Of a stretch of 24,119 bases of DNA, positions 1,738 to 16,339 are shown piece after piece. The stretch covers positions 1-24,119 of the forward strand of contig JABSSW010000113.1 in the NCBI GenBank assembly GCA_018902385.1, in the 5' to 3' direction. Source of the DNA: Physcia stellaris. Lineage: Eukaryota; Ascomycota; Lecanoromycetes; Caliciales; Physciaceae. Made by a program: the position numbers and the translations under genes. Numbering within the stretch: position 1 is the first letter of the stretch; each line of letters opens with the position of its first letter. The notes beneath the pieces are model-generated. The model ran no database searches. It was not told the origin of the DNA and saw only the letters and a list, made by a program, of their open reading frames with translations.

Positions 1738-4700
1738 ATGACAACTTTGCCCTTTAGGTCTCAAGGGCAGAGTTGGGAAACGAAGAGTAAACTCGCTCGG
1801 GAAACCATTTGGGACAAGATCAGGGAGCAAACATTCCGCAGGTCAGAAGAGTCCGGTCAACACAAGTTCATTACCGAACATATCCTTGAAAAGATTTGGA
1901 CAGACGAGCGTTTAGCGGACGTTTTTGCTGAAGTAGAGCTGCCCGAAGAACGATATCCTCAATGCCTGAGAGACAGCCACCTCAAGGTTATGTCTATCCT
2001 AGTGGCCACGGGGTGGACCGAATGGCCTCTATTTAAGACTGTATTCATTGACCAACCGAAGAGATCAGATAAAGACTTACCGTTCGATGAAGGCACGTTC
2101 GCTGGATCAGAATTCGGCAAAGCTGATGCGCAAAATTTTCTACTATCACAGTCGATGTTTCTTCCCGCAATCTTCTTCGAGAACAAAGACACGGACTATT
2201 CGTCAGATTTCAGGTTACCTTTCAGGGTCCAGCCGACAATCGTATCTGATAAAGGCTCATATTCTAGCATCGAAAAAGTTGAGCTAGTTAGTCGACAGTA
2301 TCACGACCGCAATGGAGATCCCAATGTCAACGTTAGTTTTTTTTCTTATCATGTTCTTAACATCTGGCTGCATAATAACGTTACTTAGCATAAACAGCTT
2401 GTGAGAAAGCTATGCTATCTAAACGATCCCAAACAAGACCTAAGAGAAGAGAAAGACATTCTGGCGAAGCTGCGTAATAGTCTGTTCGATGATTCGAGGG
2501 TTATGGCAAGTCTTGGAACAATAACTCATTTAGGTACACCTCGCACTCTAAGTATCTTCTTTCCAGTAGCAGAATTTGACCTCGATGATTACCTATTTGG
2601 CAGAAAGACAAGCCCCTATATCAGCCGTTTCCCCGTGGATCCAATACACCTGATCAAGGAGTTTGCCTGCTTGGTGCACGCTCTAGACTATCTGCATACC
2701 GGAATTCGACTCGCTGAAGATGGCGAACGGTACGTGTGTGTACACCATGATCTCAAACCTGATAACATACTCGTTGTCGCTGAAGATGGTGCTCCTGTTG
2801 GCCGTTGGAAAGTCACAGATTTTGGGCTTTCGGGGTTGAAAGCAGCAGAGTCCAAGAAATCTCTAACAGGAACGACCTCTTATGACCGTATTTCTTCGGT
2901 TCGCGCTTCCTTGACCTCGCCAAAGCGCCGTCGAGGTACTTTTCAGCCGCCAGAGATAGATAAAGCAGGTGAAAAGGTTATGGGCCCACGAAGCGATGTA
3001 TGGGCACTAGGCTGTATCTTGTGTCTGGTACTGATGTACGCCACTGGAGGTGACTCAGAGGTAGAGAAATTCCAGAAGCGACGACTTCGGCAAAAGAAGA
3101 CTCAACGCTCTAGCATAGAGTATGAGCATGATTATTTCTATCGTGACAATAGTATTAACCCCGAAGTATTGGCCCCTTGGAGACGAAGAGCCGACTGGGC
3201 GTATGGACTGCCAATTGCGTCGAGGTCATCAAGAAGATGTTGCAGATTGAACCAACCCGGAGACCGAAAGCCAAATTAGTCGAAGAATGGCTTTTCGAAC
3301 GCGTGGTACGCGAAATTAGGGAAAGCGACGTCAGTGAATGTTCAGCAAAGGCACCCGCACCACCCACGTCCTTGGAGGAAGGTACCCAACAACACCATGG
3401 AGGTCATGATATTTCAAGCTTCCATGAACACATTTATCGAGTCCAGACCTTGGGCTTCCAAAGCCTGAAATAACCACTGCTCAGTCAGTAGGTCCCAAAT
3501 ATGGGTTTACAGAAAGAATGGACCTGTATCTTCAACGGAATCAACCGTTAGCTCCGGCTTTGTGCCATTCAAACTAGACGGGTTTATTTCACGGACATTG
3601 CTCTGCCAGACTCTGCCGAATATGTGGCTTTTTCTTTGCGAAGCGGCGTTTATGTCCAACACGATTATGCTTTTGGACGAGAAAGCTCGTTGGGTGGACA
3701 GGCTCAACAAGGAAGTGGTCAAGCTGAGCGAGGGTACATGTCTCTCACTATCGCGCCGGAAAACTACGAGTATGGAGAGGGATATGTCATTTCCTGGAGC
3801 CTACCTCGCGCTAACAGGTTTCAACAAGGAGCAGCAAGACTACGTAAGTCGACTCCGTCCATTGAAAACGCTCGAGTCATCGTAGGGCTGCATCAGACAG
3901 CGCTAAGATAAGCAGGTCTGTATTTATAATTTGAGCATGGTTCGTCCCTCTGAGATCAGCGGCAACCGTGTCTTTACGAAGGATCGGTGTCAAACCTGTT
4001 GGGAGCCAATGTCAAGTGAAGGCGATCTTGTTTTCCGATATGCAAGCGCTTTTTCCTTTCATAGTCGTCGGTAAGTCTCTAATCATTCTGATCAAATTTG
4101 ATCATTCGGCGCTATTTTATTGATAACATGTCTGTATAGGAAGAATTGGAATCGACCCGTCAACATTTTCATCCCAGGACTGAAGAATGTAGCCTTCACT
4201 TTAAATGGTAATTGGTTACTTGCGTGGTCTGACGATAGGAGCTCTATGTACTCTCACTTCTGGGATATTAGTACCTGTGATCCAGGCGAAGGAAGTCGCG
4301 GATCACTTCACGATGTATGTTGTCACGTACGCTACGTTAACCATTGTACTAACGTCTGCAGCAACCTAAGCAATCCCCGTACCCAGTATCTGAACGTATG
4401 ATAGTCTTTCAAAACCTACCTGCTTTTGTTGTCTTTGACGAGAGTCCTGGTAAAATCCGCTATGTCCAGTAAGCGTTCCGAAGTCTTCTATTCTCCTCTT
4501 CACATTCCAAATTTCGCGATCTGATGAAGGTGATCCATCACATGTGCACAAGCGCACAGTAATCTAATACTAAGGGTGTGCTGATGTTGAATTAATAGGG
4601 GACAGACCACTCCACCAAAAGAGAAGCTTTCATCAGACTATTGTCAATGTGTCAAGAGAAAGGAGCTGTCACGCCCACATCCAATGCTGTTTGTAATGGC

Positions 4701-8067: not shown

Positions 8068-8084
8068 TCACTCCGGTGGAGAAA

Positions 8085-8131
8085 GCTGTAGAATCCTTGG
8101 CATCGAGAATTTTTAAATTTCCCCCTCCCCC
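8085..8131 (+). repeat. Left terminal inverted repeat of the MITE-like element
   Basis: This 47-base arm pairs with 8404-8448. The first 17 bases (GCTGTAGAATCCTTGGC) are identical in the two arms. The middle differs by a few bases, and the inner end is a C5TC5 run against C4TC5 in the partner. Confidence 0.8.
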
Positions 8132-8403
8132 GCGAACATCAAAAAGTTTCAATTTGATCAAAACATATCAATTTGTTTTCAAAACTTAATTTCAATAATT
8201 TTATTGCATTTTTGATTATATAACGCTTTAATTGTATGAAATTTGACATAGTATTGAATGTGTTATTAATCAATTGAAAAACAACGTTCGAGAGGGGATT
8301 TGAATACAAAAATTTAAGCTCAATTTAACGTTGAATAGTGCGATTTAGTGACAGAATTTCAGGGTTACGTCAGGGTTATCGCTAACAAAAAGCGGGAACT
8401 GCT

Positions 8404-8448
8404 GGGGGAGGGGAAAGTTAAAAATTTCAGCGCCAAGGATTCTACAGC
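8404..8448 (-). repeat. Right terminal inverted repeat of the MITE-like element
   Basis: Reverse complement of the left arm. It starts inside with a G-rich run and ends outside with GCCAAGGATTCTACAGC. Just inside it, at about 8361-8381, CAGGGTTA occurs twice, separated by CGT. Confidence 0.8.
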
Positions 8449-8474
8449 GTATTGCACCTCGGTGAACATAACCC

Positions 8475-11400
8475 TTAAACAACCTTCATCCCTGCAATTC
8501 TAACAAGATTCCTCACTTCATCCGCCCTCCTCTCCGCCTCCACAGTCTGCGGATGCTCCTTCCCCAAAGCATGCTCATACAATGTCTTTGCCTCCCTCAG
8601 CAGCGCTTCCGCTTCCACTCTCCTCTCCTCCATATTCTCATAGATAGTAGCGAGACAATACTTACTATCCCCTTCACTCTTTGCCACGCCTTCGCCACTA
8701 GCCTTCCAGCCCTCAATCGCGCGCTCGAATTTCGCTCCAGCGGCTGAAAAATTATGTTGTTTGAGATGTAGCAGGCCTTGATTGTGAAAAGTGGTCACAG
8801 TGAAAGGGTGAGCAGGCCCGACAGCGCCTTCGAGAGTGCGGGCTGCGCGGCTAAGATAGTGTCCCGCCTTCTCGTACTGAGCAGATTCGAGACAACATAG
8901 GCCGAGGTTGCAGATGATGATTTGCGTTTTCGTGTGGCCTGATCCATATTGCCTCTCGGTTCCGGCCAAGGCACGCAAAAGTAGGCGTTCCGCAGCAATG
9001 AAATCTCCTTTTAAGACTTCGAGTGTGCCAAGGTGATTGACGATCATAAGGGTTTTGCTAGCTTCGGGACCGTCAGCTTTTCACGACCTTCGAGGGCTTG
9101 CTTTAAGAGCGTTTCTGCCGTGGAGAGGCGGCCTTCCTTCATGTAAGCCACTGCGAGGCCGTTCTTTGTGCTTAAAGCGGACACGAACCAGGGTTCGAAG
9201 GAGCTGAAGTCGCCGGTAAGGGCGCCTTCGAGCTTTGTACCCGAGGCGTTGAGTTTGTCGTCTTGGGTCCAGTAGAGGACACCGAGGCGGACGATGTGGA
9301 GGTGTTCGTTGGGGTCTTTGATTGGGGGGGTCTCTTTCAGGTTGATAAGAATTTGCATGTAGAGATTTTCGGCCTCGAAGAGGTCGCCTCGGTCGCAGTA
9401 CATGTTTGCTAGGACGTTGCGGATCTTGGGCGTGACTTCGTGATCGCCTCGCAAGGCACGTTCGATCAGGTACTTCGTTTCTTGGTACCTAAGCACATTA
9501 AAGCCTCAGATGTGAAATTATAATATGTCGCGAGAAATGTAATCCTGAGTTGTTGCAAACAAGTTGACCGAAGCTTTTCACATCATTAAAACATGATATG
9601 TCTTATATTTCGTAAAAAGCCTCAAGACTGGTGACAAAGCTCTGAAATGTACTTACCGGCCTAAGCGGCGGTAGAAGCTGCCGAAAGAGACCATTGCGTC
9701 CTGTAGCGTCTTGGAGACTTGATGCCCATTTGTATGCAGCATTTCATCTCCCGCGATGACAGCGTCCAGATGGCTTAAAATTTCTCCCTTGTCACGAATT
9801 GGCATCTCCTCTTCGTCGCCATTGTCGACGAAGAGACGGACGACATGGACGGCTTCTTCGGCATATTCGTCTCGGACTTTGATATCGACACGGAGTTTTA
9901 GCCACTCAGCGATAAGCGGGTGAAATGAAAAGCGGGCATCCGTTGCCTTTAGATCGATACTTGTCACGAGCGAGACACTCAGGAGACGAACGATCGAGTC
10001 TTGATATTTTCACTGTCCCATTTCGTACCGTCCGTGAAATAGTCGAGCCATTTTGGCCTACGAGCTTGCTTAGCGTAAAGGCTAAAGAGCCCTTCACTAA
10101 TGTCTCGAGTATTGACGAATGCTCCCAGAGTCAATAAATGGACCAATGAATCACGTTCGTCATGGGTGACTTGTAGCTGCTCGAAAGACATTTCCCATGT
10201 AGTGAATACAGATAAGGGCTTGTCGCGCTCCTCTAGCCTGGTCTTTGAATACTCCCAATGTGTCGGAGTGTGCTTCAGTATGGCCGATCTGCGTTTTGCG
10301 AAGACCTCAGCGAACGATTTCAACGGTAGATCTCGAGCTCCGATATATGTCGCAGCCTGATCGATTGCAAGGGCTAGACCTCCGAGGATTTCGACAATCT
10401 GGCGGGCGTCCTCCACGTTTTCCTCAGTTCGTTCATGTCCAGATTGAAGTAGTAGCAGTTCCACACCCTCCTATGGCGAGTATATGGGTCAGCTTTCCTT
10501 TCCATCCTACTGAACAGCGGCTGAAGTCTATGCGTCTAGCAATTCTCTCACTCAAGCGTGTCTTAGCAATAAGTGAAGAGCACCTCACTAGGGAAAAGGC
10601 GCTCCAAAGTATGCTCACCTCTGCTGTCATAGCGCCAACCTCGACCCTTACCTAGTCTCTTCGCATCCGTATGGCGACTGTTGAAGATGATCTTGGAACG
10701 ATCCGGAAGATAGTCTCGAATGGTGGGGAACTCGGCAGGCTTGTCATAATTATCAAATATCATCAAGACCGGATCTGACAGATCCTCGAACTTCTTCAAT
10801 ACGAACGTGCGGGCAGCTTCTGGGTTCGGAAATTTTGAGCCCGGTGCCAAATTCAAGGCAATGCCTTCGAAGCTTCGATTGACCGTCCCCATAGAAGTCG
10901 CATCAACCCAGAAGATGGAATATTCTGATTGTTCTGCTCTGCAGTACTCAAGCGACAACTGTGTCTTTCCCTGACCTGCAATATATCAGTTGCAGTACTG
11001 AATCGGTTCCATTTCTGTTCTAGGAGCCTTACCTCCCATTCCAACCAAGACAATGACTGATGCGCCCTCTCTGAAGAACTTTTGTATACGATCGAGCAAG
11101 TATTTCCGTCCAACAAAGCGGTTGACCCTCATTGCAGGGACCTCGTAGAATTTCGACTTCGTCGCCACAGCGGGCAGACTTTGGCCTGACGAAGCCATGA
11201 CTGTAAGATGACTGAAATAGAGCGTCAAGGTTGACTTGTACGTCTCAAGAATACGTTAAATTTCAACGATATTCTTCTCCACCTTGATGCTTTTGATGGC
11301 CCTCTTCCCCTTTATCAAAAACGAGTCATCCGGTAAGGGCAGGCACTCTCCCAAACGCGCCTCGAGCACTTTGGTCAGTCTTACAAAGCCTTGAACGGTC

Positions 11401-11576
11401 TTCAATAAAGACTTTTGCTGTTCAGTTGAGATCTTCTCAATCTCGCAAGCAGTCTTGATCTCTTCAAATGTCTGAACTAGCAACGGTAACTGATCATACA
11501 ACGTACGAAATATCTGTGGAGGCTGCTTTGTCCAGGAGAGATAGTATTCAAGACGGTCTGCCACCTTGAAACTCAT
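8475..11576 (-). CDS. Fungal NLR-like protein: helical N-terminus, NB-ARC, TPR; disrupted
   Basis: From the ATG at 11574-11576, an all-helical N-terminal domain (residues about 1-125, resembling SesA/NACHT-associated N-terminal domains) leads to the NTPase. Walker A GMGGQGKTQ is split by intron 10976-11032. Walker B is PVLMIFDNYD, then IIFNSRH and GGLALAIDQA (GLPL motif). The winged-helix region is followed by about 330 residues of TPR-like helical repeats ending at TAA 8475-8477. Further introns are 10471-10618 and 9489-9656. Such proteins act as cytosolic switches in heterokaryon incompatibility and immune-type responses. Damage seen: an in-frame TAA at 11256-11258 where the family pattern predicts Gln (reading continues in the same frame), and one-base shifts near 9067, 10000 and 10646. 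The effector domain is short and no ankyrin or WD repeats are present. Confidence 0.8.
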
Positions 11577-11587
11577 GTCTATGCAGC

Positions 11588-11910
11588 TGACGGAATTGAC
11601 ACCGAGTGTGATTATGGCTAGTGATGGGAGGCTGTCGCGTGACGGTCACTACATGTCTGTCATGACACTGTCAGTCACGTCACGATGATTCAACTTGACA
11701 GCTACCTGTTCTGGGTATTAGTCCTTCGCGGTGTACGCTATGTTAATAACAGATGAACACTGAGGACTTCGTTCTTGGGAACGCTGTATTCAATCATTTT
11801 GCTTCCACGTGATGTCTTGACGTCTAGTAATTGTGACCTGACCGTCACGATATCACGGTGACGGTACGGTCATTACTGTCACGCGCCAACTTGTCATGTC
11901 ATATGCCATC
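11588..11910. promoter_or_regulatory. TGAC/GTCA-rich bidirectional upstream region
   Basis: This lies between the NLR start (minus) and the maltase start (plus). TGAC or its complement GTCA occurs roughly 18 times in about 320 bp, far above the two or three expected by chance. It includes the palindrome GTGACGGTCAC at 11639-11649 and an inverted pair ACCGTCAC / GTGACGGT at 11841-11848 and 11858-11865 around a GATATC centre. TGACGTC at 11818-11824 and CACGTG near 11806 resemble bZIP and bHLH sites. A shared promoter with clustered factor sites is the simplest reading; a decayed repeat is the alternative. Confidence 0.45.
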
Positions 11911-12028
11911 ACTCGTCAGGCAGATGGTTCCCGACAACCCCAATTTCAATCTCTCTAATAATCGAACTATTTTTCTTTTGTTGATGCCATTGTCTTCATA
12001 GACATCCAGCATATTACAGCCACTCAAC

Positions 12029-13467
12029 ATGTCAGAAGAGTGGTGGAAAGAAGCTGTGATCAATCAGCTAAAGATTGAAACAACACACTCACCACAAAGA
12101 GTCAACTGTTTCGTTTCCTAACATCATCATCCCCAGATCTACTGACAAAACATCCAATGAGTACTACCTCAGCCTATTCACTCCTGACCAGCCAGATCTG
12201 AACTGGGAAAACCCTGATGTCCGCGTCGCTGTGCATGATGTGATGCGCTTCTGGCTGGACAAGGGCGCGTGCGGGTATCGAATGGATGTCATAAATCTGA
12301 TCAGTAAAGATCAACGCTTCCCCGATGCTGATGAAACGATTGTGAATGCCACTTCTGGTGACGCGGCCGGCCATACGGGCGGAAGCGCAAAATACCAACC
12401 TGGGTGGAAGTGGTATGTCAATGGCCCGCGTTTGCATGAGTATCTTCGGGAGCTGAAGAAGGAGGTTTTGGATCCGTATAAGGCGATTACGGTAGGTGAG
12501 ATGCCTCACGTTAGTGATATAGATGAGATCATAAAGACAGTGGGGCAAAAGGATGGCGAGTTGAACATGATTTTCATCTTCGATGTCGTCGATTTGGACA
12601 ATGTGCCCGGGCAAGGGCGGATGGCGTTGCGTAATTGGGAAGTGCGGGATCTGGTGAAGCCAATTGTGAAATGGCAGACTCTGATGATTGAGCGAGAGGG
12701 ATGGAACAGTGTGTTTATCGAAAATCACGACAATCCAAGATCGTTGTCGAGGTTTTGCGATGATTCTGACGAGTGGAGGAGAAGGGTGCAAAGCTGCTAG
12801 CGCTCATGCAAACGACGCTCAGTGGGACCATATTTGTGTATCAGGGGAGAGAGTTGGAATGAGGAATATGCCGAAGGACTGGGATGTAGCGGAGTACAAG
12901 GATATTGAGTCTGTCAACTATTGGAAGAAGAGTCTCGAATTGCATGGATTTGACAAGGACGCTCTGAAGAAGGCAAGAGAAGTATTGGACACAAAGGCAC
13001 GAGATCATACGAGGACTCCGATGCAATGGGACGCCTCGCCTAACGCCGGCTTTTGTAGCGAGAATGTTAAGCCATGGATGCGGGTGATGGACGATTTCAA
13101 GACTGTCAACACCGACGTTCAGACGAGATTCAGCAGTGAAAATGATCTAAGTGTATTGCAGTATTGGAAGCGAAGGCTGGCGGATCGGAAGAAGCACGCT
13201 GATGCCTTTGTTCATGGCGAGTATCAGACGATTGATAACGCTGACAATGGAAGTGTATTTGCATACCTAAGAGCCGGGAAGGAAAGCGGTCAATGGCTGA
13301 TCGTGCTGAATTTCAGCGGCAAAACCGTAGCGTGGAGCATGCCAGAGGAAGTGAAGGTGAAGGGCTGGATGGCAGGAACTTATTTGAAGGGAAAACCTGA
13401 CAAACCGACTAAGGGCGTCGTGGCGCTGCGGCCATGGGAGGGCTTATTAGGCATGTGCTCAGACTGA
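12029..13467 (+). pseudogene. GH13 alpha-glucosidase (maltase/isomaltase type), internally deleted
   Basis: The gene starts normally, MSEEWWKEAV, the usual N-terminus of fungal cytosolic maltases. After about 13 residues the frame loses the expected N-terminal half of the barrel, including the conserved D-x-V-x-N-H region, and resumes at EYYLSLFTPDQPDLNWENP. About 180 residues are missing. The remainder is well conserved: nucleophile Asp in YRMDVINL (12285-12287), acid/base Glu in VGEMPH (12498-12500), transition-state Asp in ENHDNPR (12729-12731), then DHTRTPMQWD and the C-terminal beta domain to TGA at 13465-13467. Two one-base shifts lie near 12783 and 12855. An intact version would hydrolyse maltose or isomaltose to glucose. 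Without the barrel half it cannot fold as an active enzyme, unless the assembly has collapsed the locus. Confidence 0.85.
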
Positions 13468-14006
13468 TTCTGATGGACACCCAAGACCCAAGCCGCAGAA
13501 GGAAGAGTCCATAGGCGGCGCCAGCATCACCCACGAGGCATAGAGCAGCCCAGGGAGACGCCGAAGAGGAAAGATAGTATGTGGTCTCAAAATGAAGAGA
13601 CGAAAGCTGCAGAAACGAAAACTCGGGGGGAAGGTCGTCTATATAGGCGTGCCAAGCCCCAGCTTATTCGGGCCGTTGTCGGAATATATGCCTGCCTTGG
13701 CTTTTGGAGAATCGATCATCTAGCTTCCTTATTTGGTTTTCCTATCACTCATGAGCGCTGTATTCTATAGAACCGCATTTTCCAAGCCTTGTTCGTGCTA
13801 CCCGTCTTATGAATTTGAGTCTTCACCTTAGCTTTCCGTGCTCTCGGGGAGCTACGAGCTTGTTATAAAGACAAAGGTCAAAGGCTTCCTTTGCAAAATC
13901 TCCCCCAGACCTGTACTGCGGATCCTGACATCTCATCATCTCAGCTGCTCGTACTCCATTCTGATCCTCTGATGTTCCGCTGTTCGGAATCGGTTCAGTT
14001 GAATCT
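13468..14006. other. Convergent 3' intergenic region
   Basis: This lies between the maltase and LYS12 stops, so both 3' untranslated regions fall here. One open frame (13579-13770 plus) has no recognisable motif. No repeat or RNA gene was seen. Confidence 0.4.
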
Positions 14007-15126
<1,120 letters not shown>

Positions 15127-15945
15127 TGTTGCTGGATGAGGGGAGTGTTAGACGATAGGGGTTACTTCCATGTCAAGGAATTGACGGCCGACTTCAGCAT
15201 ACGAGCGTGGTGCTGACTGCTTACAGGCCGAGGAGAGAAAAATATCTCATAACCGGATTTTACGGATTTTAGGTAAATGCTCGAGACGAACGCAAAAGCT
15301 CCGCGGTTCTGTGTAGGTTTTTCATCTTTTCAGGATCGTCTTCAGAAACATTTTACTATCCTGATGACCAGCGGTTTCGATTGTACGCGCCATCTGAAGC
15401 ATAAGTCACATATCAATGTACTGCGATGTCAATATCCAGCCTCCTCCGTGAGAACGAGTCTGAGGGTATCAAGACACGAACGCGTCGTCCAGGTCTTCAG
15501 AATTGCAACTGTACACGCAAGCAGATAAAAAAGAGGTCTACCTGATTAGAAGCCACAGTTTGGACCCCATCACCTGGATCCTGGTTAAAGGTGGTTCGGT
15601 CCTCTCAAACGTAGTTTACGGACCAACAGGGTACCCGCATCTCGGTAAACGGGAATTTGTCTTGCCAGAGGATAGAACCAGGTTCGTACCAGGCTAAGGT
15701 AAAAAGCTCGATTGATCTGTTCCCAGGGCAGAGAAATACAAGTGGCAATTCTCTCACCAACCACCGACATTCTTTGCCCCTTTCAAGCCTTTGACATTAT
15801 AACAATTCCTGAATTTTATCAGCACCTCTCCCTTTGTTGAAATGATCTTTTCTCTCTTCAAACTATCGCCAGGATAAGTTTTTCCTCCTCGCATGCCGGC
15901 TTCACCATATATCTATTTGATGGCTCTATTGAATGAAAACAGAAC
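15127..15945. other. Intergenic region upstream of LYS12, no gene seen
   Basis: This should hold the LYS12 promoter and the 3' untranslated region of the Cys-rich gene. Short open frames on both strands show no motif. I looked for the TCC-N5-GGA-type Lys14 site known from yeast lysine genes and did not find a clear one. Confidence 0.35.
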
Positions 15946-16339
15946 TTACATGCAATCTTCGCAGTCCGTACAACTAGCACAACTTTGCGCAGCGTCAGCG
16001 GAACGCATCTAGCTGAGTCCATGTCTTTCAACTACTTACTTTTTGCAAGACTCGCATCCCACGCAATCCGAGCAGTTCGCGCAATTACTAGCTCCCAGAT
16101 ATCAGCGCATTGCAAATCAATGCAGTATCCGATGAAAGCCTCCAGCAACTGAATAGATACAGGTAGATTGTCTTCGTAATTCTGGCTCCGTCAGAGAACA
16201 AGGTCTCTTACTAGCAATCGACGCAATTCCAGCAGTTCTTGTTCCCGTCTCCGGTAGTCTTGGAGCAATTGCGATTTCCTTGGCGGGTATCCGGAGAGCT
16301 GAAGCAGCCGAAAAGCGTTCGTGAGAGGGAGGATAACAT
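15946..16339 (-). CDS. Tiny (Cys-x-x)n protein, three exons, about 70 residues
   Basis: Exons are 16212-16339, 16040-16087 and 15946-15982, with introns 16088-16211 and 15983-16039. Both introns have GTAAG donors and AG acceptors and both are phase 2. Each exon alone ends in a stop almost at once, but splicing gives one clean frame. The N-terminus is MLSSLSRTLFGCFSSPDT. From residue 36 to 69 every third residue is Cys: twelve Cys in strict C-x-x register (NCWNCVDC, YNCANCSDC, VGCESC, KNCASCTDCEDC), with Asn and Asp favoured between them. Two earlier Cys make 14 in all. There is no obvious secretion signal; the basic and hydrophobic start could be an amphipathic or acylated anchor. Metal binding or an ordered disulfide/Cys stack are possible roles, both inferred. 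The stop overlaps ATGTAAGT, a strong donor, so a fourth exon could replace the last residue. Confidence 0.72.

Follow-up and report, generated by a model that had tools for sequence, protein, structure and literature searches.

On the minus strand of a 24,119-nucleotide stretch of DNA (the window), we identified a short spliced gene whose product carries a cysteine at every third residue. Its coding pattern among three copies in the assembly is that of a protein under selection, and its triplets follow a grammar and pattern shared with arrays encoded by phages. As the most favoured, though still tentative, interpretation, we propose that a filamentous fungus carries a functional four-exon nuclear gene in three copies, the product of which would be an 87-residue rod with a cysteine face, most likely binding soft metals. 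A eukaryotic protein of such strict period, under selection and with the phage grammar, points to an unrecognised repeat architecture, and if it does bind metals, the range of thiol-based metal stores would be widened. At 13 triplets the protein is small enough to be made and solved, which opens the fold of the entire class to test.

Gene structure in the window

An earlier sequence-only reading had proposed three exons joined across two phase 2 introns into a protein of 70 residues, and these elements were found as described: splicing of positions 16339-16212, 16087-16040 and 15982-15946 (minus strand) yields 70 residues with 12 cysteines at a period of three from residue 36. Exon 1 (16212..16339), whose ATG is preceded by an upstream in-frame stop, encodes the leader (residues 1-35) together with the initial three cysteines of the array, with a further five encoded by exon 2 (16040..16087) and four by exon 3 (15950..15982). 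Intron 1 (16088..16211; GTAAGA..TAG) spans 124 nt, compared with 116 and 123 nt in the other two copies, and intron 2 (15983..16039; GTAAGT..AAG) spans 57 nt; both are phase 2, and in each copy of the gene both contain a branch-like CGCTGAY site. Among 7,397 GT-AG models enumerated from the same ATG with zero, one or two introns of 40-160 nt, just two preserve at least 11 triplets, one using the AAG acceptor of intron 2 at 15983 and the other a TAG acceptor at 15974. The latter sits 9 nt past the AAG and costs exactly one triplet, leaving the register unchanged, so that the uncertainty over the 3' site of intron 2 amounts to precisely that unit. Since fungal introns as a rule end in YAG, both forms have to be considered. 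This gene is the only place in the window where TGY recurs five times in a row at 9-nt intervals (mean of 0.01 in 200 dinucleotide shuffles). Tandem Repeats Finder reported no repeat at the gene, and the period is therefore more a property of the protein than of its DNA. From these sequence features the splice model appears strongly supported.

The 3' end of the three-exon model is nevertheless incomplete. The TAA previously taken as the stop is embedded in a perfect GTAAGT donor (15949), which matches those of introns 1 and 2 in type and phase. When 29 downstream AG acceptors were tried, two yielded a protein that does not vary among the copies, with one of these adding just a two-residue stub; the CAG ending at 15809 is the sole acceptor to give a long end (18 residues, 70-87) identical in all three, and a TGCTGAT branch-like site lies 10-11 bases before it. 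This defines a probable intron 3 (15809..15949, minus strand, phase 2, GTAAGT..CAG, 141 nt) and a probable exon 4 (15754..15808), the latter encoding a 13th triplet (CYN), the tail VKGLKGAKNVGGW and a TGA stop. Because exon 4 reads M-N-C-Y-N, extending the array as C-M-N-C-Y-N across the junction, the cysteine register, already claimed to be unbroken across the first two splice junctions and found to be so, spans the third as well. All three variable columns in exon 4 are silent. The copies differ at 1-3 of 55 sites in exon 4 versus 11-14 of 139-141 in intron 3, such that exon 4 is supported less by sequence identity than by its silent changes and its register. A third intron and a fourth exon are thus most likely, giving 87 residues; the twelve consecutive triplets proposed earlier were all confirmed, with the total rising to 13 in the extended model, or remaining at 12, in 84 residues, should intron 2 end at the TAG. 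The array opens with CWNC, and the last triplet is followed by 13 residues. Short multi-intron genes of this kind are easily mis-modelled.

Copies in the assembly and selection on the protein

The 44.0 Mb assembly (147 contigs) contains three copies of the gene, located in the window (C113), at C108:13316-13701 and at C18:44054-44446. The C108 and C18 proteins are identical, and differ from that of C113 solely at residues 17-18. After residue 35, all 13 variable columns of the 87-residue model are silent third positions. Restricting the comparison to the 70-residue model from residue 36, 10 out of 10 are silent, an outcome whose probability would be roughly 8e-9 to 5e-7, depending on transition bias, if single changes fell at random. 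Relative to C113, the other copies differ at 20/115 and 26/123 sites of intron 1, which also varies in length, and at 15/57 sites of intron 2 in both cases, while differences within exon 2 are all silent. Drift is uneven, because C108 and C18 differ from each other at 16/115 sites in intron 1 and at 0/57 in intron 2. Given that these two copies have five silent differences in exon 2 beside an identical intron 2, and given the contrast between exon 4 and intron 3, site-by-site conservation alone is only modest there. The silent-only changes, the conserved splice and branch-like sites, and the presence of three copies bear out the earlier claims of a real spliced gene and of a protein under selection, both of which we consider very likely. 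A chance reading of DNA that is not a gene could appeal to the AAG acceptor of intron 2, or its competing TAG, and is highly improbable in view of the same evidence.

The window (1-24119) as a whole is represented in the assembly by three copies that are largely collinear, and these may be segmental duplicates or divergent haplotypes. Collinearity with C108 extends over 21.7 kb at 94% identity, and C18 aligns in two blocks, the first 8.2 kb long (94%) and the second, which holds the gene, 10.7 kb long (90%). Probes placed at 60 kb and 300 kb along C18 each returned one full-length match, indicating no block duplication at those points; the 300-kb probe gave three additional short matches. A 5.6-kb stretch of the window (8068-13662) bearing TPR and alpha-amylase-family open reading frames (ORFs) is absent from the C18 copy, where about 1 kb of unaligned sequence stands in its place. 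Also accompanying all three copies is an isocitrate/isopropylmalate-dehydrogenase-family gene (window 14010-14959), which also has a fourth match on C34, short (158 bases) and diverged (69%). Finally, codons 1-39 (exon 1, window 16339-16212) show no silent changes among the copies, against 13 in codons 40-87, a gap that may reflect an extra constraint at the DNA or RNA level, or gene conversion.

Cysteine-triplet arrays in phages and their relation to the fungal gene

Phages proved to encode many such arrays, a large (C-x-[N/D/G])n class with up to 55 strict triplets. The PHROG family phrog_15341, represented by CP220 gp032, CP21_166 and other Campylobacter Firehammervirus proteins, matches residues 35-77 of the 87-residue model at an E-value of 2.6e-9, improved from 1.1e-6 for the 70-residue model; because we judge this match to be largely carried by the cysteine period, it does not amount to proof of descent. 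Long strict arrays are present in CP220 gp032, CP21_166 (54 strict triplets), Flavobacterium phage FL-1 and Vibrio phage 1.238, where the array protein was deposited as an insect antifreeze protein. Across viral contigs, three profile scans yielded 21 relatives out of 51 pattern matches, 38 out of 162 and 411 out of 424, and the class as a whole is seen mostly in metagenomic contigs without host data. Altogether the same triplet grammar recurs in about a hundred phage or viral-contig loci (116/148, some sharing one contig). Among the best 80 of the 411 relatives, an array of at least six triplets precedes the C-terminal domain that served as query in 76 loci, with three of the remaining four cut by contig ends and one having a short array. 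This domain is roughly 97 residues long, with the consensus ..IENIH..ALDM..WH.C.TTHCRAGW..LAG..G..LE...

In phage FL-1 the deposited gene (2613-2957) occupies a frame other than that of the Cys-triplet ORF (L030:2501-3205), and the annotation over the C-terminal domain (3093-3317) lies in yet another. On Campylobacter fetus plasmid pCfviMP1, a 134-residue ORF with a long, strict Cys-triplet array (L031:1974-2378) is flanked by a topoisomerase gene and a hypothetical gene, and is absent from the PLSDB gene table, which is incomplete.

To describe the grammar we used a set of 63 sense-strand arrays of at least eight triplets, duplicates removed, drawn from phages, viral contigs and a single plasmid. 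The mean share of N/D/G is 63% at x2 versus 11% at x1, with x2 exceeding x1 in 59 arrays and the reverse in four; about half of the set stems from a scan whose pattern requires N/D/G-type letters at two x2 places. The same lean is seen where the query lay off the array (15/18 in the leader scan, 74/74 in the C-domain scan), as well as in the array scan (30/31) and the named records (5/5). With 13 strict triplets, against at least eight for the class, and N/D/G at 11/13 x2 and 0/13 x1 positions, the fungal array agrees with it on both counts. In 99 of a larger set of 128 arrays (116/148 loci, pre-filtered on x2), the first cysteine follows G, N, D or A; in the fungus it follows N. Trp occupies the first x1 in 41 of 55 type-1 arrays and 3 of 81 others, as it does in the fungal CWNC, and is found at triplets 2-4 in only 4 of 474 cases. 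Of the 50 Cys-free interruptions of 3-10 letters between array blocks in the 128-array set, 48 preserve the register (41 of five letters and seven of eight) and the other two are three letters long. Inside the searched pattern, 43 cysteines are replaced in the phage arrays, by Ser (25), Leu (8), Ala (3), Gly (2) and, once each, Tyr, Asn, Arg, Ile and Phe; His, Asp, Glu and Val do not occur among them. Pro is nearly absent from the 63 arrays.

Comparison with individual phage families revealed both shared and missing elements. As in the fungus, phrog_15341 proteins combine a strict C-x-x period with N/D/G at x2 and N before the first cysteine, but their genes are single-exon, whereas that of the fungus is multi-exon, and the fungal leader falls outside the match. 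Type-1 proteins (Flavobacterium phage FL-1, Vibrio phage 1.238 and many IMG/VR contigs) likewise follow the x2 rule and usually start with CWNC, but possess a REDK..NGVS leader and often the C-terminal THCRAGW domain, neither of which is found in the fungus. The fungal leader showed no resemblance to that of type 1 (its score was reached by 260 of 500 shuffles), and the THCRAGW domain, present in some members of types 1 and 2, is absent from the 13 residues after the last fungal triplet. The fungal cap scores 3.2 against a median of 23 for true type-1 starts, and above 75 of the 81 other arrays (permutation p 0.012). The fungal and phage arrays therefore share a grammar and, judging from their sequences, perhaps a fold; the fungal gene may have originated through transfer or convergence. 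Searches of the open-access literature gave no description of this array class, and the accessible part of the CP220 genome paper (PMC2853527) contains no word beginning with Cys. It is possible, if doubtful, that the (C-x-[N/D/G])n arrays form a distinct undescribed kind of protein, a capped triplet-coil rod whose unbroken cysteine ladder holds metal ions or clusters in a row, which would be widespread in phages and was acquired or re-evolved by the fungus, with the gain of introns and three copies.

Candidate structure and function of the array

Under the preferred reading, the first 35 residues of the protein would form a leader, followed by 13 C-x-[N/D/G/S] triplets in a capped array and then by a short tail of basic character, making it a eukaryotic case of the triplet-array type found in many phages. 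The period-three register would set every cysteine on one face of a regular rod, with Asn, Asp or Gly at x2 forming turns and the Trp at the first x1 capping the rod end. The thiol face would most likely bind soft metals (Cu(I), Zn, Cd), and the protein could act as a metal buffer or store in the cytosol, a location suggested by inspection by eye, which revealed no signal peptide. A regular rod with a cysteine face is suggested over an irregular metallothionein because interruptions keep the register and because cysteine gives way to Ser, Leu or Ala; together with the near-absence of Pro, these features are consistent with a rod having a shared inner face.

The strong retention of cysteine would be best explained by soft-metal binding, to which a purely structural cysteine core is a close rival. 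In this alternative, rather unlikely overall, the cysteines would be the buried core of a triplet-coil rod or solenoid serving, like other repeat proteins, as a spacer or binding scaffold, with metal dispensable. Consistent with it are the register-keeping interruptions, the Ser, Leu and Ala replacements, the Trp at the first triplet and the placement of arrays before the phage C-terminal domain, and the lack of His, Asp and Glu among the replacements fits a packed core equally well as a ligand site. Replacements are, however, few (nine Leu or Ile, no Val), so that the thiols seem to be required, and the fungal array carries no cysteine substitution. We assign a similarly low likelihood to a largely unstructured, metallothionein-like thiol buffer for metals or redox, whose period would derive from tandem 9-nt duplication instead of a fold. 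Small size, high cysteine content, the lack of a signal peptide by eye and two copper-fist matches in the genome (copper-fist and UstYa both being fungal families) would suit such a buffer, but no tandem DNA repeat was reported at the gene, and the x2 rule and register-keeping gaps of other arrays imply a structural period. Like the fungal metallothioneins (families fungi-I to VI in the accessible part of PMC13107397), the protein is small, Cys-rich and probably cytosolic; it differs in its strict CxxC period. The C-x-C element of the heptaCys signature C-x4-C-x-C-x2,3-C-x-C-x4-C-x-C, which defines one fungal metallothionein group in the part of PMC12508003 available, occurs nowhere in the 87 residues, in agreement with the earlier remark that the classic CxC spacing is lacking.

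A precursor of a modified peptide (RiPP) is improbable. The comparison is with the heterocycloanthracins of Haft 2009 (PMC2674419), the one relevant open-access paper found on repeated Cys-Xaa-Xaa, for which such modification has been proposed. Their precursors likewise combine a leader with such repeats; they are bacterial, are built of Gly-rich CGG units absent from the fungal protein, and need maturation enzymes. An exon-by-exon search of the assembly gave no match to YcaO (PF02624), the control being positive in 5 of 14 genomes, and all 20 UstYa matches lie on other contigs. The 70-residue model matched no NCBIfam family at E up to 10, in a release that may or may not include TIGR03601, the curated heterocycloanthracin-type precursor model named in PMC2674419.

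Pfam likewise returned no match for the fungal protein, and the PDB a single hit at E 9.2. An AlphaFold2 model of a phage relative, built from ten sequences, had pLDDT below 50 at residues 62-109, most of its array, with its leader and C-terminal parts modelled better, and fold comparison of this model gave no clear match among solved structures. The polyproline-II-like fold and the metal-loading and redox roles suggested in the earlier reading are accordingly hypothetical. Within 800 bases upstream of the fungal gene, no metal-response motif was in excess in all three copies; the only motif in excess upstream of all three was a heat-shock-like palindrome.
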